IMG/VR virus record: IMGVR_UViG_3300044638_004203
Span: 1 to 22,021 of that record
Source of the DNA: a virus
Reading direction: 5' to 3' (one strand)
Length of the DNA stretch: 22,021 nucleotides
How positions within the stretch are numbered: the first letter of the stretch is position 1; every line of letters begins with the position of its first letter. Of the stretch, positions 1 through 22,021 are shown piece by piece. The position numbers were made by a program, and so were the translations under genes. The notes below the pieces were generated by a model. It was given only the letters and a program-made list of their open reading frames with translations, ran no database searches and had not been told where the DNA came from.

Positions 1-2137
1 CTTTGATTGATGAATTTTTAGCAACCTCTGCATACAATACGGTATTCAAATTCTTTCTGAAACCAAGTATGTATTCATCAATTTCGTTTTTATCTTTACC
101 TTTCAGAATATCAATCATCACATCCTTCATACACTTCTGAAATGATTTGGGGAATGATGAACGAACAATGTCCAAACCTTTAACTTCCAACTTATCCATT
201 GGAACACCGTTGTCCGAAATAATCCAAAGTGCATATCTCTTTTTCTTTTGCCAGAATCCTGTTCTACCAATCATTTCTTGTTTAATTTCCAAACGATGTT
301 TGTCAGTATTGAATATCTTTTTGGCAAATACATCATAGAATTGATTTACATAATCTTGGACTTCCGTTGCAATCTCGTAAATCTTCGGTGTCATTATTTC
401 AATATCATTTGTATCAATGTCCGGAAATCTATTCTTCACCAAAGGTAAACAAGAAACAAAAACGGAATCGGTATCAACATACTGCACATAATCAATATCA
501 TCTGTTTTCAATTCTTTATTGTATTTCATATTGATAGCAGCTTCTGTTTTCTTAATAACGGTTTGACCGGAAAGTGTAACGGCTTCCGCATTATCAATAT
601 CATAAAAACGAAACGCGGGCAAACCTAAGATACCATACATACTATTCAAAAGAATCTTTTGAACAAGTTGTCTTTTCTTATAGAACTCATACTTGTCTGT
701 ATCACCGGCTTTACCCCACTTCTTCATTTCATTTTTATACTCAACCCTTTTGTCAAACCAATCAGAAAGAATTGCAGGAATGAGACCAGTTTTATCTGAA
801 CTATACATAACACCATTTGATGCAACCGTGTATTTGTATTTGTCCAAGAATGCTTTTAACTTTTCTTTTGATACCTTTTCACCACCAACAATATATTCAT
901 CTTTTCTTTCACGGTTGAAATCTTCAGCATTCCAATCTTCAATCTTAGCAATCTTTGTTTCTGGAGAAATGTTTAGCGTCATAATGATTGATGGGTATAG
1001 TGATGTCAAATCCAAGTCATACATCCAATCATATCTACCAGGAACAGGATCCTTAACGAATGCACCGATAAATCCTTTCTCACCACTATCTTTTAATTCT
1101 TGCATCTTCTCTTGTCTATCCGCCGGTTTGTTTGGAGCAACAACACCACCAATATGTTTAAGATAAGTTAGCATAGCTCCTTCCAAATACTTTGATGAAT
1201 ATACAAAGTCTTCATACGGAACATGACCAACATGAGCGATACCACGAACCAAATCAATATACTGCAACTTCTTGTCCAACTCAATCACCAACTCAACGTC
1301 AGTAATGTTATATTCGATAAATGTATCAATATCATTTTCCATCAAGTCATCAAGGTTTCCTTCGTATTCAATCTTACCACGACCAAGCTCTGTCATACAA
1401 ACTGCATTTAGAGCATAGGATGGCAATTCTTTATATGAGAATTTTTTATACACCGTCATATAATCCAATACGGATGTTCCACCGATTGTATAACGATTAC
1501 GATATGGTGAATAAAACATTTCACCAATCACAGAAAGATTGTTTGCATGTTTCTTACCAAGAACTCTTTTTATACGGTTGTGTAAATATGGAATATCGAA
1601 TGCATCACAATTCCAACCAGTCATAACATGGGGTTGTATTTCTTGAATTGCATCTATGAATTTAAGTAGTAAAGTTTTTTCATCATAACAAGGTATTACA
1701 GTTTTGTTATCCGTAGTTTTGTTTTCCAACTTTCTTTTCTTATCCAAAACAAGAATGGTATAATGATTGGTTGCGGAATCATGGTAAGCAATTGATGTAA
1801 CTTCGTTATTACCTTGTGTTGGATCAGGAATACCGGTAATCATTTCAACCTCAATATCGAATGTCATTGTGACAATTCCCTTCGAGGGCATATCGGAATC
1901 GCCATACATATCAACAAGAATACGAGTTGTCTCTGCAATATCAGATTCAAATAGGTCTGGATCATTCTTTATGAAATTTGTAACCTTTGACAGTTTATCA
2001 CCGTATAGAGAAATATATTTACCATTAGGATCTTTCTTGTAAGCATAGGGCGTATATTCAAAGTGCATTAAACCTTTGGTATCATCCCATACCCATGCTT
2101 CTTTTGTATTTGTTTTAACGAAAATGTTTTGATACAT
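1..2137 (-). CDS. 43: DNA polymerase, family B (T4 gp43-like), 3' end cut by window edge
   Basis: Replicative DNA polymerase with proofreading exonuclease. About 712 residues are visible and the C-terminus lies beyond base 1; T4 gp43 is about 900 residues. In one continuous frame I read the exonuclease motif FDIEVE (D94, E96), NCDAFDIPYL (Exo II), YNITDVELV (Exo III), then polymerase motif A DLTSLYPSI (D376), motif B KILLNSMYG (K494-G502) and motif C YVDTDS (D555, D557). Exonuclease and polymerase are therefore in one chain, unlike phages with a split enzyme. The ATG at 2137 is one base past the stop of the methyltransferase gene, with AAGG upstream inside that gene's end, which suggests translational coupling. 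The family call is certain; only the end is unseen. Confidence 0.97.
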   Translation of the reverse strand, partial: MYQNIFVKTNTKEAWVWDDTKGLMHFEYTPYAYKKDPNGKYISLYGDKLSKVTNFIKNDPDLFESDIAETTRILVDMYGDSDMPSKGIVTMTFDIEVEMITGIPDPTQGNNEVTSIAYHDSATNHYTILVLDKKRKLENKTTDNKTVIPCYDEKTLLLKFIDAIQEIQPHVMTGWNCDAFDIPYLHNRIKRVLGKKHANNLSVIGEMFYSPYRNRYTIGGTSVLDYMTVYKKFSYKELPSYALNAVCMTELGRGKIEYEGNLDDLMENDIDTFIEYNITDVELVIELDKKLQYIDLVRGIAHVGHVPYEDFVYSSKYLEGAMLTYLKHIGGVVAPNKPADRQEKMQELKDSGEKGFIGAFVKDPVPGRYDWMYDLDLTSLYPSIIMTLNISPETKIAKIEDWNAEDFNRERKDEYIVGGEKVSKEKLKAFLDKYKYTVASNGVMYSSDKTGLIPAILSDWFDKRVEYKNEMKKWGKAGDTDKYEFYKKRQLVQKILLNSMYGILGLPAFRFYDIDNAEAVTLSGQTVIKKTEAAINMKYNKELKTDDIDYVQYVDTDSVFVSCLPLVKNRFPDIDTNDIEIMTPKIYEIATEVQDYVNQFYDVFAKKIFNTDKHRLEIKQEMIGRTGFWQKKKRYALWIISDNGVPMDKLEVKGLDIVRSSFPKSFQKCMKDVMIDILKGKDKNEIDEYILGFRKNLNTVLYAEVAKNSSIK

Positions 2138-2138
2138 A

Positions 2139-3365
2139 TTATACCTTTTTGAACATCCATATTGGTTCACAAAACTTTTTATCTTTATTATCTTCGGCGA
2201 ACTGAACACTATTATCGAGAAAGTGTCCGTCTCTTGTGGCAGTTCCTGCACCAGCAGAGTTTGGTCTTTTAGACATTTCCATTCCAATACATCCCAAGTA
2301 TTCCATTCCACTCTCTACAAGAAAATCATTCATTGGATTTGTTATCTCCAACCATTGTCTACCGGTAGACCATGCAGAATTTGTGTAAACATCTGCAATG
2401 TTTATCGCCATCACACCACCAACTCTTAATGATGGTATAATGTTTCCAAGTGTCTTTTGTAGAAAATCTTTATTCCACATATCAATTCCTTTGTATCGAA
2501 CCCAACTCTGTGTATCGGATTGAGAATACTTTTCAACATTGAAATATGGTGGTGATGTAAATACCAAATCAAAATGTTCTGGATATTGTGAGAAATCAAA
2601 ATCCTCGGCAGGTGATTTGTAGAAATTTGTTTTCTTCTTTCCTTCAAAGAAACCTAAATTCTTTTCATAAAACTCAACTTGTTCATCATATATCGGATGA
2701 TTCTCTACTCTTGGATCCAATCCAACATAATGTTCGGTGCATGATGCCGCATAAAATCCAGCAAGTCTATCACCCCATCCCATAGAAAAATCTAATACAT
2801 TTTTTGCACCTAACATTTCATACATACACTTTGCAACATTAGGTTTGAATTGGGAACAAATGTATTTACGCAGTCCTAACATTGTTCTCAATTCTGATTT
2901 ACCGAGTGTTTCCATTTTAAGAGAATACATAGAACCCATGAGTGACTTCATAAACTTATGGTTTTGCCATGTTCTAGCAGGACCTGGTGATACGGATGCA
3001 TCAACTTCCCAACGGTTCTTTTGTTGGAAATAGTTTGATGCATCGTTACCAGTATTAAGACGACTGAAATATAACTGTTTTCCACCATAAGTCAAAGCAT
3101 ATTTTGGTTCGGATGCTTTTCTTGGAAACCACTCACCTTCTTTTAGAATTTCATTCCAACGAATACCTTTCAATTTTAAGAACTCACTTTGAGCACTTTG
3201 GATTGTAATATCCGCATAAGGTAGTGGATATGTCATTGCTATTTCAGCCAGACGGTCTTTTACATATTCTTTATCAAAGTTTTCTTTTATGTATGTTATT
3301 TGTTCGGCAGTTATGGATAAATACGGATCCATTCCGTAAAATTGTTGGAAGTAATCTTGTTCCAC
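2139..3365 (-). CDS. DNA methyltransferase-like protein (TSPPY motif)
   Basis: Protein of 408 residues with a SAM-dependent methyltransferase core. VLDFSMGWGDR (190-200) is the SAM-binding motif I, GLDPR (215-219) fits motif II and TSPPYF (270-275) is motif IV, the catalytic signature of N4-cytosine/N6-adenine DNA methyltransferases. About 190 residues precede motif I and match no domain that I recognise; they may hold target recognition. No restriction partner lies beside it, so self-modification or protection against host restriction is more likely than a restriction-modification pair. The start is uncertain: the frame begins at a GTG (3365) with only a weak ribosome site, and an ATG lies ten codons further in. 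It lies 13 bases after the gene at 3379 and one base before the DNA polymerase start. Target base and sequence cannot be read from here. Confidence 0.85.
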   Translation of the reverse strand: MEQDYFQQFYGMDPYLSITAEQITYIKENFDKEYVKDRLAEIAMTYPLPYADITIQSAQSEFLKLKGIRWNEILKEGEWFPRKASEPKYALTYGGKQLYFSRLNTGNDASNYFQQKNRWEVDASVSPGPARTWQNHKFMKSLMGSMYSLKMETLGKSELRTMLGLRKYICSQFKPNVAKCMYEMLGAKNVLDFSMGWGDRLAGFYAASCTEHYVGLDPRVENHPIYDEQVEFYEKNLGFFEGKKKTNFYKSPAEDFDFSQYPEHFDLVFTSPPYFNVEKYSQSDTQSWVRYKGIDMWNKDFLQKTLGNIIPSLRVGGVMAINIADVYTNSAWSTGRQWLEITNPMNDFLVESGMEYLGCIGMEMSKRPNSAGAGTATRDGHFLDNSVQFAEDNKDKKFCEPIWMFKKV

Positions 3366-10037: not shown

Positions 10038-10913
10038 CTACATTATTTCCGGTATAGGTAATTTTGCATCGGTTATACTTTGTATAAAAAACTTGCGAAT
10101 TGTATCTCGCATTCCTGAAACTTTACTTTGTTTGTTAAATACAACATCATATAATTTTTCAAATGATGCCGCATCTGCGATAGTGTATTGGTCTCCCAAA
10201 AAGAAATGTATCATTTCTTCTGGTGTTTGTGTAACAAAACTCTCACTACCTGCGATAGTTTTACCGGCTTTAATAATACTTCCACCTTTACCAGCATAAC
10301 TTTTTGTCAATCTATAAATTCCCCTATCGTGTCTCATAACATATTTTTCAACTTCAATCGGAACATCTTTATCAGTTTTCTTCAATACTTTGTAATCAAC
10401 TGCAGAAACAACCGCAGCCAATAAAAAGTTTCTATATGCTCCCTTATATTTAGATTCACCCTTTGAATAATCTGGAGATGAATATACAAATTGTGTCCAA
10501 TTAACATTGTTTGATAACATGAAATCAACTTGCACAGGTTCTTCGGTAACTCTGCCGACTATTGGAAACGGAATAGAAACTTGTGAGAACCCACGAAGTG
10601 GCTTTGCATCATACCCCATTTTTTCTAATTCTTTTATCAACCAATCCAATACATCACTCAATTTCAAACTGTTAGCAGATGCCAATTGATCCATAGAAAC
10701 ACCAATGTCCAAGTCACCTGATAATTGGTCAGCGGGTTTCTTTCCTGCACTACCGAGTATGAAGCAATCTGTTCCAAAACCGATAAGACCGAGTGGTTTC
10801 AAAACAACCGTCTCAATTTTTGAGACAGTTGCCGGTATCTCATTCTGTTTGATACCAACTGCATCGGGAAACATATTCCCACCCTCTGTCAATAATTTCT
10901 TTAATTTAATCAT
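10038..10913 (-). CDS. Nucleotidyltransferase-fold protein (pol beta superfamily)
   Basis: A 291-residue protein with the superfamily signature: FILGSAGKK (51-59, helix-turn GS at 54-55) followed by SGDLDIGV (65-72, metal ligands D67 and D69) and a third acidic strand PVQVDFML (D130). Members transfer nucleotides to RNA, proteins or small molecules (CCA-adding enzymes, antibiotic NTases, MNT toxins); the acceptor here is unknown. No HEPN partner gene lies beside it, which argues against a MNT/HEPN toxin pair. The N-terminus MIKLKKLLTEGG resembles a capsid-targeting sequence with an LxE cleavage site (see findings). No clear ribosome site precedes ATG 10913. The start lies 17 bases past a 17-bp inverted repeat arm. 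Confidence 0.75.
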   Translation of the reverse strand: MIKLKKLLTEGGNMFPDAVGIKQNEIPATVSKIETVVLKPLGLIGFGTDCFILGSAGKKPADQLSGDLDIGVSMDQLASANSLKLSDVLDWLIKELEKMGYDAKPLRGFSQVSIPFPIVGRVTEEPVQVDFMLSNNVNWTQFVYSSPDYSKGESKYKGAYRNFLLAAVVSAVDYKVLKKTDKDVPIEVEKYVMRHDRGIYRLTKSYAGKGGSIIKAGKTIAGSESFVTQTPEEMIHFFLGDQYTIADAASFEKLYDVVFNKQSKVSGMRDTIRKFFIQSITDAKLPIPEIM

Positions 10914-11393: not shown

Positions 11394-13247
11394 TTATTTT
11401 ATTTCACAAGCACCACCAGCACAAGCCAATTCGCCAGTCAAATCTGTATTGTCTTCCAACTCAATTACATTACTCAAATCAACATCGTGTAATGTTTCCA
11501 TTAACTTATTATACTTTTCTTCATCAATATCTTCAAACGGTGCCTGTATGTATGTTCCGCCGTCATAAGGCAATACGGAAAGACCGTTGAAGTGTTCTTT
11601 ATTTTCCCACATCCAATTACCAACGGCATCCCATTCGTGTTCACGAATTGAAACTGTTGCAGATATGTTGTGAGTATTCATACCTGTTCTATGACCTGGC
11701 TTAATCCAATTCTGATTGAACCACTTTACTCTTTCCAACAACTGTAAAGGACTTTCACTACGAAGTATTGAACCCTCTGGTGCCTTTTGTGGAACGCCAA
11801 TTACAGCAGTATCATGTGGGCGGAAGTATTCATCTTCTACCAATTCAGGATGATTGATTGCGAGATAAGTATAAATTGCCTCATTCTTACCAACACGAAC
11901 ACGGCGTAGATAATAGTCATTGTGCCAAGCATGAATACCAGATGAACAACCCAATGTCAATGATGATGTTCCAGCAGGTTTAATCGTTGTTGTTCTTGCG
12001 GATTTATTTATACCGATAAGTTCAGCAACTCTTTCGTTTTCTTCTCTTGATGCCTTAGCAGCAGCTTTCAAATCCAACTTTTGAACTTTACCAGAACCGA
12101 TACCTGTCATACCAACACCGAGAAGTGCATCCTTTTCAGTTGTTCTTTGCCAGATTGGGCGAAGATAATGAAAATCCGTATAACCTGCCTGCAATGTTCC
12201 GATGAAAGAAGCAGCACGAACTCTCTCCTCTAAATCTTCTTGACTTTCAACATCGGAAACATTTACCTCACACAAGTTACAGAATTGGAATGGTCGAAGT
12301 GCAATCTCACAACAAGGATTTGTCCCCCAATCTTTATCATTGGAAAGATAAATACCTGGCTCACCTGCATTTGATAATTCTATTTTCTTCCAAAGTGATT
12401 TGAAAAATTCTTCTGTTACCTTACTACGAAGAAGAACTGCCGAGTTATTGGCTCTGCCTCTTTGTGGATTGAGTTCCCACCAATTTCCAAACTTACATGA
12501 AATCATATCATCATCATCTGCAGAAAAAAGAGAAATAAGAGCAGCACGGCGAATACCACCGGCAAGAACTGCATCTGCAATATGACAAACAATATCGTGA
12601 ACTTCGATGGGTGATAATTGTTCACCGTCATTTTTAAGGTCAAGTATTGCTCTAATCTTTTCAATACAAATACGAAGTGGCTCTGGACCTGGTGCCTTAC
12701 CACCACTTGTAATTAAACGAGCACCTTTGTGGCGAATATCTGAATAATCAAAACGAATAGATGAACCACCAGTGAAATATGATTTCATTACGGCTTTAAT
12801 TGCATCTGCCCAACCTTCAATCGAATCACTAACTAAAAATCTTCTTTCTTTTGATTTAGGTCTGTGTATTGGTGGCAAACTTTCAACATGATGTTTTTGA
12901 ACTGAATATCCTACACCAGTTCCACCAAGAAGAAGAAACATCACTTCACCGAATGCACGCCAGTCATCTATCGGAAGATATGCACAGTTGTAAATTCTGT
13001 TTGGAGAAATTTCAATTGGTTTTCCACCAAACTGCAATGAACGCATTGATGGTAATACTTTTTTATCATATACCATCTTATACACATTCTCTATTTCATC
13101 CACCAGTTGTGGGTATTTTCTTTGGTGCATTTCTTTATTTCGTGTCACCAATTCTTCCCAAGTTTCTCTACGATTCTTTTCGGGTATGAAACGAGCATAC
13201 TTCATATAGACAGTAATTTCAGACAGAATGCGATTGCTAATGTCCAT
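11394..13247 (-). CDS. nrdJ: Class II ribonucleotide reductase, adenosylcobalamin-dependent, monomeric type
   Basis: Reduces ribonucleotides (NTPs in the monomeric family) to deoxyribonucleotides using adenosylcobalamin as radical source. It has 617 residues, shorter than the L. leichmannii enzyme (739). The visible catalytic set is C88 (YNCAY), the NPCCEI finger loop with the thiyl-radical cysteine C312 and E314, C323 (FCNLCE) as the redox partner of C88, and the C-terminal pair C609/C614 (CAGGAC), spaced by five as in the C731/C736 pair of L. leichmannii. GGIRRAALISLF and LGVGMTGIG are further family hallmarks. GGAG stands eight bases before ATG 13247. T4 uses a class I enzyme, so class II suggests a host with access to B12. 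The thioredoxin of this window is a plausible reductant. Confidence 0.95.
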   Translation of the reverse strand: MDISNRILSEITVYMKYARFIPEKNRRETWEELVTRNKEMHQRKYPQLVDEIENVYKMVYDKKVLPSMRSLQFGGKPIEISPNRIYNCAYLPIDDWRAFGEVMFLLLGGTGVGYSVQKHHVESLPPIHRPKSKERRFLVSDSIEGWADAIKAVMKSYFTGGSSIRFDYSDIRHKGARLITSGGKAPGPEPLRICIEKIRAILDLKNDGEQLSPIEVHDIVCHIADAVLAGGIRRAALISLFSADDDDMISCKFGNWWELNPQRGRANNSAVLLRSKVTEEFFKSLWKKIELSNAGEPGIYLSNDKDWGTNPCCEIALRPFQFCNLCEVNVSDVESQEDLEERVRAASFIGTLQAGYTDFHYLRPIWQRTTEKDALLGVGMTGIGSGKVQKLDLKAAAKASREENERVAELIGINKSARTTTIKPAGTSSLTLGCSSGIHAWHNDYYLRRVRVGKNEAIYTYLAINHPELVEDEYFRPHDTAVIGVPQKAPEGSILRSESPLQLLERVKWFNQNWIKPGHRTGMNTHNISATVSIREHEWDAVGNWMWENKEHFNGLSVLPYDGGTYIQAPFEDIDEEKYNKLMETLHDVDLSNVIELEDNTDLTGELACAGGACEIK

Positions 13248-13369: not shown

Positions 13370-14722
13370 CTAAAACCCTTCTAATTCTTTGAATTTTTGT
13401 GAAAGAGCTTTCTTAACATTCACATCACCTTTCATTGATGTCTGAACACTTTGTCCCATATCAGAACTTGGTTCATATATTTCAATATGGCCAGTCATTG
13501 TATTTATTTTACTTGGGAATGTCATTCCATCTGGACCGAAACGATTTTTGATAATATGCCATCTGCCTGTTCCACCAACCTTATCATTAAGTTTTCTTGA
13601 TAGTGACATGATGAAATCTGCAATCATAATCTTATTATATGATTCTGAAACCTTACCACCTTCAATTACATCATCTTCAAGAGCAGAACGATTTGCCTGT
13701 GATGCAGTCCAAATAGGTATTCCATATGTTCCACCAACACCACGCAAGTCCTCGTAAATATCATTCAGTTCCAATCTCTTATCACCGGCTTTAGCAGGTC
13801 TAAGCAAATCTGCATAATCAACTATAACCAAATCTGGTGGTTTTCCTTGACTAATACATTTCTCAATGTGTGATGTGATTGTTGTGATACTTGCAGTTTT
13901 GGTTGGATAATACTTTACAATCAAGTCACCTTTTATGGTTTCCATTGTATCACGGATTTTTTCTTGTGCATGTTCTTCGTTTAGATTTTGAAATGCAATC
14001 TTCGTAAAGAACGCATCAAATCTTCTTGCAACATAAAACTGATTGAGTTCAAGTGTATAATAAACAACTCTCTTACCGGCCTTGACTGCTTGAGCAGCTA
14101 TACTTACCAATCCCCAAGACTTACCGCCACCGGCAGGAGCAATGATAACACCCAACTCACCAGCAGCCAAACCACCGTTTGTAATATCATCAACAACATT
14201 CCAACCAGTAGATACACAACTTCTTGCACCTTCTTCATAACGAGCAATAATATCTACAAGATATTCATGTCCAATATCTTTATCAGTTCCGGCTTTGAGT
14301 GCATTATCAACTTTCTTTTTAATAAGGTCATACTTACCACTCTTAAGCAAATCAACCGACTCAATAATTGCAACTTTCATCTTTTGATTTTTACAAAATT
14401 CAAGAGTAGTTGATTTAACATATTCTGCATCAGAACTATCTTTATACTTTGCACTTTCTTTCAGAGCATCTGCAATAGTGCTCTTCAAAACTTTATCTTC
14501 AACGGCAATCAATTCAGACTTAAAAACTTCAGCAGTTGGTGCAGTTTTATACTTCTCATAATAGGACATTATCTTTTCAACAACCCAATTATTTGCCTGA
14601 GACTCAAAATAATTTGGCTCAATAATATCGGAAACTTGTTGTAAAAATGCTCTATCGTTTAATAATGAAGTGACTACTTTTGTCTGAAATGTATGACCAT
14701 ACTGGGATAAATTATCCTGCAT
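13370..14722 (-). CDS. 41: Replicative DNA helicase, DnaB/T4 gp41-like
   Basis: Hexameric 5'-3' helicase that unwinds the fork ahead of the polymerase. It has 450 residues (T4 gp41: 475). The N-terminal helical domain (1-150) is followed by the RecA-type motor: Walker A APAGGGKS (195-202, K201), YYTLELNQ with the catalytic Glu (about 221-227), Walker B LVIVDYADLL (298-307), the TASQANRSA motif and a C-terminal KNRFGPDG that would hold the arginine finger. The ATG at 14722 overlaps the last 11 bases of the exonuclease gene and uses AGGA inside it, indicating coupling. No separate primase is visible in this window. Confidence 0.95.
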   Translation of the reverse strand: MQDNLSQYGHTFQTKVVTSLLNDRAFLQQVSDIIEPNYFESQANNWVVEKIMSYYEKYKTAPTAEVFKSELIAVEDKVLKSTIADALKESAKYKDSSDAEYVKSTTLEFCKNQKMKVAIIESVDLLKSGKYDLIKKKVDNALKAGTDKDIGHEYLVDIIARYEEGARSCVSTGWNVVDDITNGGLAAGELGVIIAPAGGGKSWGLVSIAAQAVKAGKRVVYYTLELNQFYVARRFDAFFTKIAFQNLNEEHAQEKIRDTMETIKGDLIVKYYPTKTASITTITSHIEKCISQGKPPDLVIVDYADLLRPAKAGDKRLELNDIYEDLRGVGGTYGIPIWTASQANRSALEDDVIEGGKVSESYNKIMIADFIMSLSRKLNDKVGGTGRWHIIKNRFGPDGMTFPSKINTMTGHIEIYEPSSDMGQSVQTSMKGDVNVKKALSQKFKELEGF

Positions 14723-15758
14723 ATTTTTTCCTAATGGAATTTAATGTTGTAAAATTCTTTTGAATCCATACATCCCAATTCAATAAAACATTTTGTAATT
14801 TATCTTCTACAAATAGTTTATCCAATTCTACTTTATTGATACCGTCAATTTCACCATCAACTAAATGTCTTATCGTTGATTTGGTGCTCTGTGAAATATC
14901 AACATCACTCAATTGCATAATTCTGTGATTGGTTTGCAATACATTTAGGTTGTTCTTTAATTCTTGAATTGCTTTGGATTTATTATCATGTAATTTACAA
15001 ATTTCTACGAACATTTCCAAATTTATTTTTCTTTTTTCTGATAATTCTGGAAAGAATTTTAGTATAGTTTTGTCACCAAGTCCACGAATGCCAACTACAT
15101 TGTCACTCTTATCGCCAAGTAACGATTTGTATATGATATAATTCTCACACCATATACCAGTTTCTTCCAATAGATTTTCTGGTGTATACATTTTCTTTTT
15201 GGTTGGCAGATAAACACTAACTTTGTCCGAAACTAATTGTAAAAAATCTCGGTCATTGGAAAGTATTACACATTTTTCTTTGAAATAAGAAGAAAGGTAG
15301 GCAATCACATCATCTGCCTCGATTTTATCAATGGAGATTATAGTAAGTGGCAGATTTTGTAGGTATGAAAAAACACGAAACAGTTGATACTTCATTGAGG
15401 ATTGTTCATCATCAATATCTTCAAACCCAACTACTCTATTCAATTTTGATTTTATTGCTCTACCTTCCTTGTAATTTGAGTAAATTTCTTTTCTTCTTTG
15501 TGAACCGCCTTTACCATCAAAAACGATAACTACACGGGTTGGGTTTACCATACGAATTGTTGCCCCAAGAGATTTTAAGAAACCAGAAAGTCCACCAACA
15601 TGAACACCATCTTCATTTAATGTTGGGATTGCAGAGAATGTTCTAATAAACAAATTCATCCCATCAACTATCAAAACCTTACTATCACGATGTAGGTTTT
15701 CTTGTTCTTGTTTTTCTGTTTCTATTTCTTGTAAAAGTCTTTGATATTTACGGTTCAT
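14712..15758 (-). CDS. rnh: RNase H / 5'-3' exonuclease (T4 rnh, FEN-1 family)
   Basis: Structure-specific 5' nuclease that removes RNA primers and flaps from lagging-strand fragments. It has 348 residues from ATG 15758 (T4 RNase H: 305). Acidic metal ligands appear in the family order: VDGMNLF (D32), FDGKGGSQRRK (D81), KIEADD (147-150) and SNDRDF (D169, D171), then the H3TH DNA-binding segment GDKSDNVVGIRGLGDK (215-230). An N-terminal extension of about 25 residues rich in Glu/Gln precedes the core. The frame is open 27 codons further upstream, but that part crosses a promoter-like site and a terminator, so ATG 15758 is preferred. It overlaps the helicase gene by 11 bases. Confidence 0.93.
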   Translation of the reverse strand: MNRKYQRLLQEIETEKQEQENLHRDSKVLIVDGMNLFIRTFSAIPTLNEDGVHVGGLSGFLKSLGATIRMVNPTRVVIVFDGKGGSQRRKEIYSNYKEGRAIKSKLNRVVGFEDIDDEQSSMKYQLFRVFSYLQNLPLTIISIDKIEADDVIAYLSSYFKEKCVILSNDRDFLQLVSDKVSVYLPTKKKMYTPENLLEETGIWCENYIIYKSLLGDKSDNVVGIRGLGDKTILKFFPELSEKRKINLEMFVEICKLHDNKSKAIQELKNNLNVLQTNHRIMQLSDVDISQSTKSTIRHLVDGEIDGINKVELDKLFVEDKLQNVLLNWDVWIQKNFTTLNSIRKKYAG

Positions 15759-15789
15759 CGTAACAGTTCCATATATTATTTTATCAATA

Positions 15790-15819
15790 CTAATATACGA
15801 AAAAAATATGACATTGCAA
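15790..15819 (-). promoter_or_regulatory. Promoter-like site upstream of rnh (TTG-N19-TATATTAG)
   Basis: Minus-strand TTG (15819-15817), 19 bases, TATATTAG (15797-15790), ending 31 bases before ATG 15758. The 14-mer GTATATTAGTATTG (15798-15785) is identical to one upstream of the ssb gene. It lies just after a strong terminator, so it should drive rnh and helicase. Confidence 0.6.
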
Positions 15820-15820
15820 A

Positions 15821-15851
15821 ATAAAAAAAAGAGAATCATACGATTCTCTTT
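15821..15851 (-). terminator. Strong rho-independent terminator after the gene at 15872
   Basis: A perfect ten-base stem (AAAGAGAATC / GATTCTCTTT, 15828-15837 with 15842-15851) and four-base loop. On the minus strand it runs into TTTTTTTTAT. Confidence 0.9.
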
Positions 15852-16382: not shown

Positions 16383-17531
16383 TTATACTTCATCTTGTAA
16401 TAATGGTTCATTTGAAAGTGTTACATCATCAATTCTTGCTTCATCAAGTTTCTTATATTTCATAATTACTTTCTCGGCGATTTCATCATAAACTATGTCA
16501 TACAATTGAGGATTACTCATAATCTTTTCAACAAATTCTTTGGATTGAAATTTGATTACCTCACCAGTTCTTTTGTCTGTCCATTGATACCAAGCACCTG
16601 ATTGTGAAACAAGATTGTGTTCCTTCATAACAGTTAGCCATGAAGAATAGTCATCTATACCACTATCAAAATAAACTTCATATTCACACTCACGAAGTGG
16701 AGGACCACATCTATTTTTGACGAGTTTTGCTTTAACTCTCGAACCAACAATTTCATCACGACCTTCTCTCTTTGCCTTAATAGCACCGATTGAAGATAGA
16801 CGAAGACGAACAGACGCATGGAAAGGAATACCTTTGCCGCCTGGTGTTGTCCAAGGATCAGAGAATGCCGGAGCATTAAGTTTCTGACGAAGTTGGTTTG
16901 TGATAATCAAGCAAATACGCTCTCTACCGATAAGATTTGTAATCTTTCTCATTGCCTTTGAAATGATAAGTGCCTTTGCCGTAGCATAACCATCCTTATC
17001 AAAGTCTGCAGCCATTTCTGTTTTAGTGGATGCACCTGCGATTGAATCAACTACTATCGTTACCAATCTATCTTTATCGGATGAACGAACTTTGTCAATG
17101 ATAACATCAACTGTTTCAAAAATATCTTCTACGGTTTCCAATGGAATGTATAACATATCTTTTAAGTTCAATCCAATTGCAGTTAGATATTCGGTTGCGA
17201 TTGCATTCTCGGTATCAATATAAACAGCAAGACCACCTTTCTTTTGTGTGTTAAGAAGTGCATGGGCTGCCAACAATGATTTACCAGATTGTTCGAGACC
17301 TGTTATTTCAGATACACGACCAACAGGAAAACCACCATACTTACGATTGGAAATGGCCAAGTCTAACATGGTTGAGCCAGTTCCTACCCATTCTTTTACT
17401 ATCGTAGGTGCATCGCTATCACCTTCAAGAAAGTAAGCGGTCTTAATGTTTTGAGATTTGAATTGTTTGTTTATAGTTTCGGCAATGAGTCCACCGAGTT
17501 CATCGGAAAGATCACTCTTTGATTTTGCCAT
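16383..17531 (-). CDS. uvsX: RecA/UvsX-like recombinase
   Basis: ATP-dependent strand-exchange protein for recombination-dependent replication and repair. It has 382 residues (T4 UvsX 391, E. coli RecA 353). Walker A is GLEQSGKS (78-85, K84), YIDTEN (104-109) follows, Walker B is LVTIVVDS (156-163), and TNQLRQKL (211-218) with TPGGKGIPFHASVRL (229-243) matches the L2 DNA-binding region and following strand of RecA. The C-terminal part is acidic. It lies 12 bases after the ssDNA-binding protein gene, with GGGG upstream of ATG 17531, so both come from one transcript, ending in a terminator just past its stop. RecA and UvsX are hard to tell apart here; the phage context favours a UvsX role. Confidence 0.93.
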   Translation of the reverse strand: MAKSKSDLSDELGGLIAETINKQFKSQNIKTAYFLEGDSDAPTIVKEWVGTGSTMLDLAISNRKYGGFPVGRVSEITGLEQSGKSLLAAHALLNTQKKGGLAVYIDTENAIATEYLTAIGLNLKDMLYIPLETVEDIFETVDVIIDKVRSSDKDRLVTIVVDSIAGASTKTEMAADFDKDGYATAKALIISKAMRKITNLIGRERICLIITNQLRQKLNAPAFSDPWTTPGGKGIPFHASVRLRLSSIGAIKAKREGRDEIVGSRVKAKLVKNRCGPPLRECEYEVYFDSGIDDYSSWLTVMKEHNLVSQSGAWYQWTDKRTGEVIKFQSKEFVEKIMSNPQLYDIVYDEIAEKVIMKYKKLDEARIDDVTLSNEPLLQDEV

Positions 17532-17543
17532 AACATACCCCTA

Positions 17544-18299
17544 TTAAAATAAATCATCAAATGTAACACCAGCATCTTCAGCAGATGTATATGTCTTCTC
17601 ACTCTTTTCTTGTTTGTAATTGAGGTCTTTGGAATCTTCTTCTTGTGATGAAGCACCCATCCAAGTTTGCAATTGAATCTTCAAATCATCATACGATGGT
17701 TCTGGATACAATTCTGTAATTTGTGGTTGAGACTTAATCTTTTCAAGAACATCTGCACTTTCTGTAATAGGTGTTTCTTTTGGTTTAACACGAATACTTG
17801 TTTCTGCATAAGTCTTACCAGCTTCTTCTGGTGACTTAACGGTAACAACAATGTCACGACCAGATTTTGGATCAGACAAATCACCGTAATCGGGATCAAC
17901 AAAGAAAGCAAGCAGTTCTTCATAGATTTGTTTACCAAATCCCCAAAACTTTACACCTTCATTTTCTTGACCACGAACAATAACAGGAACATAGATACGC
18001 ATTTTGGGTTCCAATTTTCTACCCATTACCCAATCTTCTTTATCACCAGTTTGTTTAAGTTTTTCTGCAAACTCAACCACTGGATCAGGACGACCAAATG
18101 ATGCGGGAGAAAGAATAGACCTCTTACCCAAATTGTAATGGAAATACAATTCGATGAATGGATTTTCTCTGTTGTGGATGTAGGGAACAATTCTGATTTG
18201 GGTTTCACCCGGATCGGGTTTCCAAATGTTAGATGTGCGATTGTTTGTGTTTTTTAGAGAGTTCAAACGACTCTTGATTGCATCGAGGTTGATACCCAT
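17544..18299 (-). CDS. 32: Single-stranded DNA-binding protein, T4 gp32-like
   Basis: Coats single-stranded DNA during replication and recombination. It has 251 residues (T4 gp32: 301). The N-terminal basic segment (IKSRLNSLKN) leads into the OB-fold opening IWKPDPGETQIRIVPY, typical of phage gp32-like proteins. FIELYFHYNLGKRSILSP and MRIYVPVIVRG follow, and the C-terminus is acidic, ending DAGVTFDDLF, the type of tail that recruits partner proteins. The zinc-binding Cys/His set of T4 gp32 is absent: I see no cysteine. GGAG stands upstream of ATG 18299. A promoter-like site 73 bases upstream of the start and the following recombinase gene define an ssb-recombinase unit. Confidence 0.88.
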   Translation of the reverse strand: MGINLDAIKSRLNSLKNTNNRTSNIWKPDPGETQIRIVPYIHNRENPFIELYFHYNLGKRSILSPASFGRPDPVVEFAEKLKQTGDKEDWVMGRKLEPKMRIYVPVIVRGQENEGVKFWGFGKQIYEELLAFFVDPDYGDLSDPKSGRDIVVTVKSPEEAGKTYAETSIRVKPKETPITESADVLEKIKSQPQITELYPEPSYDDLKIQLQTWMGASSQEEDSKDLNYKQEKSEKTYTSAEDAGVTFDDLF

Positions 18300-18457: not shown

Positions 18458-19294
18458 TCATTTATTGTATTTCATAAGATGTTTAAGTCTGCGAACAACT
18501 GATTCTGGTAATTTTTCAACATTAAATGTTTGATCCACCCATTCTGGAGCATCGTCTGTCTGTGGCATCTTTTCTCTGTTTGGCTTTGGATCAAGTGGTT
18601 TGTTATCTGTTTTCAACTTCTTAACATTACCCCAAATATAGTTGGCGATTTCTTCTTTGGTTTCGCCTTTTCCATATTTTTTGAATACTTCAACTACTGG
18701 ATCCTGTATTTTTTCAATAACATATTTTTTCAGAGTTCCTTCATCTATTGTAAACAAATTGACACCACCACCTTTTGCAATTGGAACTTTACCAAGTTGA
18801 GCAGCAATACCAAGTTGAGTTGCTTTTAATGCGTCTGTTGGATCAGTGATTTGTCCCAAATCTATTGCCTGTATTTGAGCATCAGGATTCAAACAAAAAA
18901 CTTGCGACCATCTATGGTGTCCATCTATAATAAATTTACCGCCACCGCCGGTTACTATACTTCTGCCACCTGGAGCAACAACACCGCCTTTCAAATTGGC
19001 CTCAGCACTTGCTGGGTCCTTCATGGGGTAACTTAAAGAATTATCTAAAACAACTTCATTTTGAGTTGGTCTTAAATCTGAACATTTTGGTGTCATCTTA
19101 GCAGTATTAACCGGAAGTTTGTCCGATAGTGATTCTATTGCGGAAACAAACTTTGGATCCTTTATATGTTTACCCAAAGCTACTATAAACTGTTTGTAAT
19201 CTTTTTTCAGAATTGATTTTAGTATGTTCGTTCCCTTGTCCTCAATCAATCCAATTTTAACCTCGTTTGCCAAGGACTTTAATGAATTTTTCAT
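18458..19294 (-). CDS. ParB/Srx-fold protein (putative ParB-like nuclease type)
   Basis: A 278-residue protein. LRPTQNEVVLDNSLSYPM (74-91) followed by GGGKFIIDGHHRWSQVF (117-133) is the ParB/sulfiredoxin-fold core; the DGHHRWS motif is the hallmark of the stand-alone 'ParB-like' families. Members use this pocket to bind nucleotides or cleave nucleic acids. No DNA-binding HTH of true ParB and no ParA partner is visible, so partitioning is unlikely. The N-terminus is basic and amphipathic, ending LIE (residues 16-18), like the presumed capsid-targeting sequences of its neighbours. The C-terminus (LPESVVRRLKHLMKYNK) is basic. GAGAG stands upstream of ATG 19294, overlapping the end of the hydrolase gene. 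A terminator follows. Confidence 0.75.
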   Translation of the reverse strand: MKNSLKSLANEVKIGLIEDKGTNILKSILKKDYKQFIVALGKHIKDPKFVSAIESLSDKLPVNTAKMTPKCSDLRPTQNEVVLDNSLSYPMKDPASAEANLKGGVVAPGGRSIVTGGGGKFIIDGHHRWSQVFCLNPDAQIQAIDLGQITDPTDALKATQLGIAAQLGKVPIAKGGGVNLFTIDEGTLKKYVIEKIQDPVVEVFKKYGKGETKEEIANYIWGNVKKLKTDNKPLDPKPNREKMPQTDDAPEWVDQTFNVEKLPESVVRRLKHLMKYNK

Positions 19295-20938: not shown

Positions 20939-21328
20939 TTAAATAGAATATACTCTAACCAAATATATCTTAACAACTCTAAATCCTTCTTTATTTTTTA
21001 ATAAAGCACAATTTTTATATCGTTCCCATTCAATCGGATATTTTTTATCAAGAATACCGTTGTTCAAGTTCATTATCAATTCATTAAGAGCATTTATTGT
21101 ATAAATCGTATTTGTTTCTCTTTTTTGATGAACCATTATTGAATTTGGTAAGAATTTTTTGTAGGTGTCCATTACTATATTATAGGACAATATAGCATCT
21201 TCGCGAGTATCGAATGATTTGAAATGAAATATTTTATTATTTAATATAGAAAAATTTTGTTTTATATCGTCAATTGTTTCTTCAACTTGATGCTTGCGGG
21301 TAAATGTGCATACTAATTGTGTCTTCAA
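20939..21328 (-). CDS. Small hypothetical phage protein, TTG start
   Basis: A 129-residue protein of unknown function. The opening TFTRKHQVEETIDDIKQNF and NNKIFHFKSFDTREDAILSYNI resemble, from memory, an uncharacterised family in marine T4-like phages. The second half repeats a compact alpha/beta pattern ending EGFRVVKIYLVRVY. The only upstream in-frame start is a TTG at 21328, preceded by a GAGAGAGG purine run at short spacing; no ATG follows until well inside the protein, so a TTG start is the best reading. An ATATTTAT motif lies 39 bases upstream. It does not overlap its neighbours. Confidence 0.65.
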   Translation of the reverse strand: MKTQLVCTFTRKHQVEETIDDIKQNFSILNNKIFHFKSFDTREDAILSYNIVMDTYKKFLPNSIMVHQKRETNTIYTINALNELIMNLNNGILDKKYPIEWERYKNCALLKNKEGFRVVKIYLVRVYSI

Positions 21329-21378: not shown

Positions 21379-22021
21379 TTAAATTTGTTTAATGTGACCA
21401 AAATCATCACCAACGTAAATTTTTATTGACATATTATCAGTCTCAAATGCAGATTGCAAAGTATCAATTAAATGCATTTCATCCGGATGAATATCGAAGA
21501 TAAATGCATCATAAAGATACATCATAAACACAGACTTCTTATTCTGCAAATGTGGTAGAATGCTCTTTATCTTACGAACATTATATTCAGTTTCCAACGA
21601 TTGAAGCACATAGTTGAATACTTTGTTTGGTGTTGCATCTTGAATGTCTCTGAAAATTTTTTCGTAAAACCAAGATTTTACCACGCCATCATTTTGATAC
21701 CGTTCATATAATTCATCTATAAGTGCCTGAACAGAACGGAAAAATGTATGGTTCATAAATTCAGGAGTTATTGTTCCGTATATGTTTTGGAATACTTTAC
21801 CTTTGAATTGGTCATAATCCATATCCATTCCCAAATCATTTCGTATTTGTTCGTATGGGTGATATTCAAACTTATAGTCTAATATCTTTGCCAATAGTTT
21901 TATGTGAAATGCATCATAATCAAATTGAACTATTTTCCCACCTTCAAATCTTGAACAAATTTTATCTCTACTTCCATCTTTTTTATTCATTGCAGAAAAA
22001 TTAAAACCATCCCAAGCATTA
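21379..22021 (-). CDS. Family A DNA polymerase-like protein, C-terminal part, 5' end cut by window edge
   Basis: The frame is open to the right edge, so the internal ATG at 21990 is probably not the start. Residues below count from that ATG. VQFDYDAFHIKLLA matches family A motif A (DYSQIELRxLA) with the metal-binding Asp at D24, but His replaces the Glu. KGKVFQNIYG (63-72) matches the O-helix K-x3-F-x3-YG, although its first Arg is absent. NYVLQ (126-130) fits the N-x3-Q of Klenow N845/Q849. YLYDAFIFD (158-166) fits motif C with the second Asp at D161, His and Glu being replaced by Tyr and Ala. Spacings between motifs are shorter than in Klenow. This suggests a reduced polymerase or an inactive relative. 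It coexists with a family B polymerase. Confidence 0.72.
   Translation of the reverse strand, partial: NAWDGFNFSAMNKKDGSRDKICSRFEGGKIVQFDYDAFHIKLLAKILDYKFEYHPYEQIRNDLGMDMDYDQFKGKVFQNIYGTITPEFMNHTFFRSVQALIDELYERYQNDGVVKSWFYEKIFRDIQDATPNKVFNYVLQSLETEYNVRKIKSILPHLQNKKSVFMMYLYDAFIFDIHPDEMHLIDTLQSAFETDNMSIKIYVGDDFGHIKQI

Follow-up and report, generated by a model that had tools for sequence, protein, structure and literature searches.

The gene that runs off the right edge of the viral DNA analyzed here (22,021 nucleotides of IMG/VR record IMGVR_UViG_3300044638_004203, hereafter the window) encodes a member of divPolA1, a group of divergent family A DNA polymerases; this kind of protein has already been published under that name (PMC11348598). 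On balance, we favor the prediction that divPolA1 acts beside the replicase (a separate PolB, PolA, or PolC) as an accessory polymerase that is catalytically active but distributive and that fills gaps or carries out recombination-linked synthesis.

A sequence-only reading of this DNA had noticed an unannotated-looking frame at the right edge, and both the open reading frame listing and the continuation of the frame in a second IMG/VR contig (L001) bear this out. The minus-strand frame (22020..21379) comprises 213 codons, terminates in a stop, and is open at the edge of the window; contig L001, with 100% protein identity over the overlap, supplies the upstream part and gives a complete protein of 403 to 404 aa, a length common to nearly all of 35 close relatives, leaving aside two that are clipped by contig ends. 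The T-x-T-G-R motif that carries R668 (TATGRPSN; Klenow numbering is used for the active site throughout) lies just beyond the window edge. The ATG at 21990 is internal and not the gene start. It is the codon from which the first residue numbers had been counted, and D24, K63, F67, Y71-G72, N126, Q130, and D161 of that count correspond exactly to D224, K263, F267, Y271-G272, N326, Q330, and D361 of the complete 403-aa protein. The features of the window that bear on the argument are collected in Table 1.

Table 1. Location of the divPolA1 gene, its catalytic codons, and the associated replication genes in the window
Feature	Position	Strand	Evidence or conservation
Family B DNA polymerase (regular replicase), cut at left edge	2..2311	-	PF00136 1.7e-40, PF03104 1e-23
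DnaB/gp41-type replicative helicase	13370..14722	-	Database match; 116/123 loci
Pol I-type 5'-3' exonuclease, separate gene	14712..15839	-	PF02739 1.6e-33, PF01367 9e-8; 117/123 loci
UvsX/RecA recombinase	16383..17531	-	Database match; downstream in 120/123 loci
gp32-type single-strand DNA-binding protein	17544..18299	-	PF08804 1.6e-12; downstream in 120/123 loci
p129, 129-aa partner protein (proposed), unmatched alpha/beta fold	20939..21328	-	Reciprocal linkage with divPolA1
divPolA1-type family A polymerase, C-terminal half (palm and fingers, most of catalytic core)	21379..22021	-	Open reading frame, contig L001, profile, model
Motif C Asp codon (D882), flanked by Tyr (H881) and Ala (E883)	21508..21510	-	78/79 clusters; control 45/45
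Gln codon (Q849)	21601..21603	-	78/79 clusters; control 45/45
O-helix Tyr codon (Y766)	21778..21780	-	79/79 clusters; control 44/44
O-helix Lys codon (K758)	21802..21804	-	79/79 clusters; control 43/43
His codon at the E710 (steric gate) position	21904..21906	-	His in 79/79 clusters; control 43/43
Motif A Asp codon (D705; D224 of the protein)	21919..21921	-	Asp in 79/79 clusters; control 43/43

The fragment in the window is nearly invisible to direct searches, and it is the distant relatives that bridge the gap and thereby link it to family A. Taken alone, the window protein remained below every Pfam threshold, a search of the fragment against the PDB was unproductive, and PHROGs returned a single weak DNA polymerase match (E = 8e-4). 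The distant relatives found by tblastn are those of Microcystis phage Mel-JY01 (53% identity), the 484-kb uncultured phage record LR756508 (29%), and the Flavobacterium immuto phages (34%), whose homologues carry the annotation "DNA polymerase family A." The immuto founding members align with the window protein at a tblastn E value of 3e-20 over 83% coverage (27 to 34% identity, conserved columns aligned), and the immuto protein itself scores above the Pfam DNA_pol_A cutoff. This Pfam family (PF00476) is matched by 47 of 75 relatives (best E value, 2e-12). A profile of these 75 relatives against the PDB retrieved the Klenow fragment with an E value of 6e-5, the top matches being solely family A polymerases, and the independent alignment placed D705, K758, F762, Y766, N845, Q849, and D882 where the sequence-only reading had proposed them. 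An hhalign comparison with one full-length immuto PolA gave no significant score. The AlphaFold model of the full protein (pLDDT, 94.9; pTM, 0.91) had Klenow as its best Foldseek match in the PDB (E = 6e-14; TM score, 0.71 by query length), with an alignment that covers nearly the whole Klenow fragment, and the top 50 matches were exclusively DNA polymerases, including Pol nu and Pol theta. A different fold, which had been named as an outcome that would speak against a polymerase, is ruled out by this model and its matches.

Conservation was counted over 79 sequence clusters at 75% identity. R668, D705, K758, and Y766 are present in 79/79 clusters and N845, Q849, and D882 each in 78/79, the sole exception among the catalytic Asp residues being a Thr at D882 in one cluster (L150); F762 is kept in 77/79 and is Trp in the other two. 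Hence, both metal-binding Asp residues are retained, as had been stated from the letters alone. Of the O-helix signature R-x3-K-x3-F-x3-YG, the K, F, Y, and G are retained and the Arg is replaced: R754 is Tyr in 78/79 clusters and Met in one, never Arg. The other replacements are just as fixed, with E710 being His and H881 being Tyr in 79/79 clusters, Q708 being Ala or Gly in 79/79, and E883 being Ser or Ala in 78/79. The window protein itself has His, Tyr, Tyr, and Ala at positions 710, 754, 881, and 883, again in agreement with the first reading. Because motifs A and C had been part of the seed for the main scans, a control sample of 45 further sequences was taken from loci found via the neighboring gene p129. 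In this sample, the six residues with codons listed in Table 1 were invariant, and R754 was again never Arg. A chance motif match is ruled out by the conservation in the 79 clusters together with the control sample. Furthermore, a comparison of 40 close relatives gave an overall dN/dS of ~0.11, with 0.09 for the polymerase portion. Since the active-site residues are near-invariant and dN/dS is this low, the "regulatory remnant" that the sequence-only reading had offered is not borne out; its other suggestion, a divergent accessory family A polymerase beside another replicase, is supported by the profile, by the fold, and by the PolB genes in the window and in relatives. Replacement of R754, E710, H881, and E883 could mean weak or different chemistry.

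In the model, an exonuclease-like N-terminal domain is followed by two long helices and immediately afterwards by the palm; palm and fingers are present. The region where ordinary Pol I has its thumb, bounded by TxTGR and by a conserved Glu that closes the second helix, is only 20 to 38 residues long in 79/79 clusters, and in the model the residual stretch contains no helices, so that almost nothing of a thumb is left. A thumb is usual in family A polymerases, yet it is a variable part, and its loss is no bar to membership. The N-terminal part has no conserved DxE column; in the 79 clusters and the sample derived via p129, positions 47, 82, and 129 alone are acidic in most clusters. By its sequence, the exonuclease-like domain is degenerate, the acids of the 3'-5' exonuclease being replaced. 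This anatomy bears on the strongest alternative to an active enzyme, a pseudo-polymerase that no longer catalyzes and whose fold serves the replisome as a DNA-binding or scaffold subunit. The family-wide replacement of four active-site residues, the degenerate exonuclease part, the absent thumb, and the strict association with the small partner p129 all agree with it; however, the metal-binding Asp residues and R668, K758, Y766, N845, and Q849, which hold the dNTP and the template, are practically invariant over a very large divergence, and we regard the loss of catalysis as unlikely.

p129 lies downstream of divPolA1 in 207/207 loci with enough sequence and, in the reverse test, divPolA1 was found in 32/32 p129 loci having at least 5 kb of upstream DNA. 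Among 50,697 phage records, p129 occurs in 6, the same six that have full-length divPolA1 relatives. The protein carries the motif HRKKxxNTxYTxNALN, and its structural model is confident (pLDDT, 93.9); a Foldseek search of the model against solved folds gave no match (best E value, 0.095). We propose p129 as a dedicated partner of divPolA1, with a putative contact suggested by the linkage. It is imaginable that the two proteins are obligate subunits of a single polymerase, with the new-fold p129 replacing the thumb and a His-gated, sugar-tolerant site serving a dedicated step of recombination-dependent replication with any replicase family, but we consider this far-reaching version decidedly unlikely.

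The favored role as an accessory polymerase is suggested by the genomic setting. Among 30 long contigs with divPolA1, 14 have PolB, 10 have a separate full-length PolA (~780 to 800 aa), and one has PolC; the other 5 are without a regular replicase, and those contigs are incomplete. PolB together with full-length PolA was found in none of the 30. The constancy of a second polymerase, while the main replicase varies between families B, A, and C, speaks for a distinct step of DNA synthesis that a large group of aquatic phages cannot do without. The PolB of the window had been taken for a complete replicase; its 770 aa are in fact clipped by the left edge, and in full-length relatives the open frame spans 897 aa. 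A minus-strand gene (2139-3365) overlaps the start of PolB; its 408-aa product carries an SPPY motif and is probably a DNA methyltransferase (weak PHROGs support). In L028 (record G008, 53555-55532), PolB falls into two open frames of 610 and 306 aa, which an intron or insertion may have separated. LR756508 (L355, L356) has divPolA1 and two PolB-matching frames ~4 to 5 kb apart, as well as a 575-aa frame matching PolC (2.5e-42) that adjoins a frame resembling a translation-factor-like GTPase by eye.

divPolA1 is the first gene of a block in which gp32, UvsX, the 5' nuclease, and the helicase follow downstream, all on the same strand, each in 116 to 120 of 123 loci (Table 1). Other minus-strand genes of the window encode a 278-aa protein (18458-19294) whose GGGGKFIIDGHHRW stretch recalls ParB-like nucleases (weak PHROGs match); a compact, B12-dependent (class II) ribonucleotide reductase of 617 aa (11394-13247); a 291-aa protein (10038-10913) in which GS...DLDIG resembles a Pol beta-type nucleotidyltransferase signature by eye, with no Pfam match; and a threonine dehydratase-like phage protein (5174-5923; phrog_7093, 2e-36). 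The replication block is no proof of gap filling, because a 5' nuclease, gp32, and UvsX also occur in many phages, such as T4, that lack a polymerase of the divPolA1 type.

According to our preferred model of an active accessory polymerase, divPolA1 would be a compact enzyme (~404 to 450 aa) built from a degenerate exonuclease-like domain, palm, and fingers, with the thumb reduced to a short linker. Nucleotide transfer via the two-Asp metal site is still predicted, and with neither thumb nor proofreading, synthesis would be distributive and error prone. The enzyme may make short stretches, filling the gaps that are left after primer removal by the neighboring Pol I-type 5' nuclease; D-loops produced by UvsX and gp32 may be an alternative substrate. 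The arrangement would amount to a phage "split Pol I," its Klenow-like part and its 5' nuclease being encoded by separate genes, and p129 perhaps stands in for the missing thumb or ties divPolA1 to the replisome.

Two further roles have to be weighed against this model. Loss of the steric gate E710 and of E883 may make the site sugar permissive, and divPolA1 might then use ribonucleotides and make RNA or mixed primers. Position 710 is always His and position 883 almost always Ser or Ala, and T7-type RNA polymerases likewise lack Glu at both positions. Moreover, the sister group divPolA2 is suggested as a possible RNA polymerase in the main text of PMC11348598. Against this stand the Foldseek matches, which are DNA polymerases only among the top 50, and a DnaG primase of the T4 gp61 type, which is encoded in 8 of 21 records, namely, the complete Mel-JY01 and immuto genomes, LR756508, and five more large contigs; none of the named genomes checked that are complete or very large is without it. 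The presence of this primase weakens a role of divPolA1 as the sole primase, which we consider unlikely, and synthesis from ribonucleotides or of primers as a whole appears improbable. A lesion-bypass polymerase, one of the roles raised in the sequence-only reading, is equally improbable: it would agree with the absent proofreading site and thumb, the altered nucleotide-binding pocket, and the fold matches to Pol nu and Pol theta, family A enzymes known for lesion bypass, but the gene heads a core replication and recombination block instead of lying among repair or damage genes, and it is kept in nearly every sampled relative, the pattern of a core function.

At least 565 relatives of the divPolA1 type were found in viral sequences. 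A tree was built from 28 divPolA1 proteins; in it, the PolA-bearing phages make up a single clade (support, 100/100), and the relatives of the window protein group with Mel-JY01 on a separate, deep branch (length, 1.82; support, 100/100). A cellular origin was rejected: a search of 84,980 genomes gave 3 hits only, all in metagenome bins, and 2 of these 3 have p129 alongside, one of them with the whole phage block. The name divPolA1 was introduced by Yutin et al. in 2024 (Virol J 21:200, PMC11348598; preprint PMC11188092) for 14 phages including immuto, and the authors consider in the main text that divPolA1 has accessory status and has probably retained polymerase activity. A full-text literature search found the name in no other paper. 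The fixed replacements of E710, R754, H881, and E883, the reciprocal linkage with p129, the size of the family, and the Mel-JY01 branch go beyond what we found in the main text of PMC11348598. The function of divPolA1 is without experimental assignment in the papers found, and the p129 linkage and the fixed replaced residues offer handles for biochemistry.

Compared with known systems, the window protein resembles the Klenow fragment in overall fold, in motif order, and in the metal-binding Asp residues, R668, K758, F762, Y766, N845, and Q849. It differs in being ~200 residues shorter, with a linker in place of the thumb, in the replacement of E710, R754, H881, E883, and the exonuclease acids, and in having the 5' nuclease on a separate gene. 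The full-length immuto PolA replicase (immuto35A_71) also belongs to family A (PF00476, 2.8e-56), but it has 777 aa, a recognizable exonuclease (PF01612), and a stretch of thumb length and, unlike divPolA1, keeps E710, R754, and H881 (by eye). By eye, a full-length immuto PolA (L274:16855-19188) has Gln at E883 and apparently no Phe at F762. The divPolA2 of barbaviruses, as described in the main text of PMC11348598, is likewise an accessory, thumbless family A polymerase beside PolB, but its N-terminal domain is unrelated and its gene neighborhood is variable. The divPolA1 proteins described there coexist with a regular PolA, PolB, or PolC and have conserved catalytic residues in the palm and replication genes downstream; their thumb is truncated and their exonuclease inactivated. 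The window protein differs from these founders in having Glu instead of His at the H734 position and in its place on the deep branch with Mel-JY01, which is absent from the 14 genomes listed in the main text of that paper; it is like them in its kept palm residues, its truncated thumb, its replaced exonuclease acids, the regular replicase encoded elsewhere, and the replication genes downstream.
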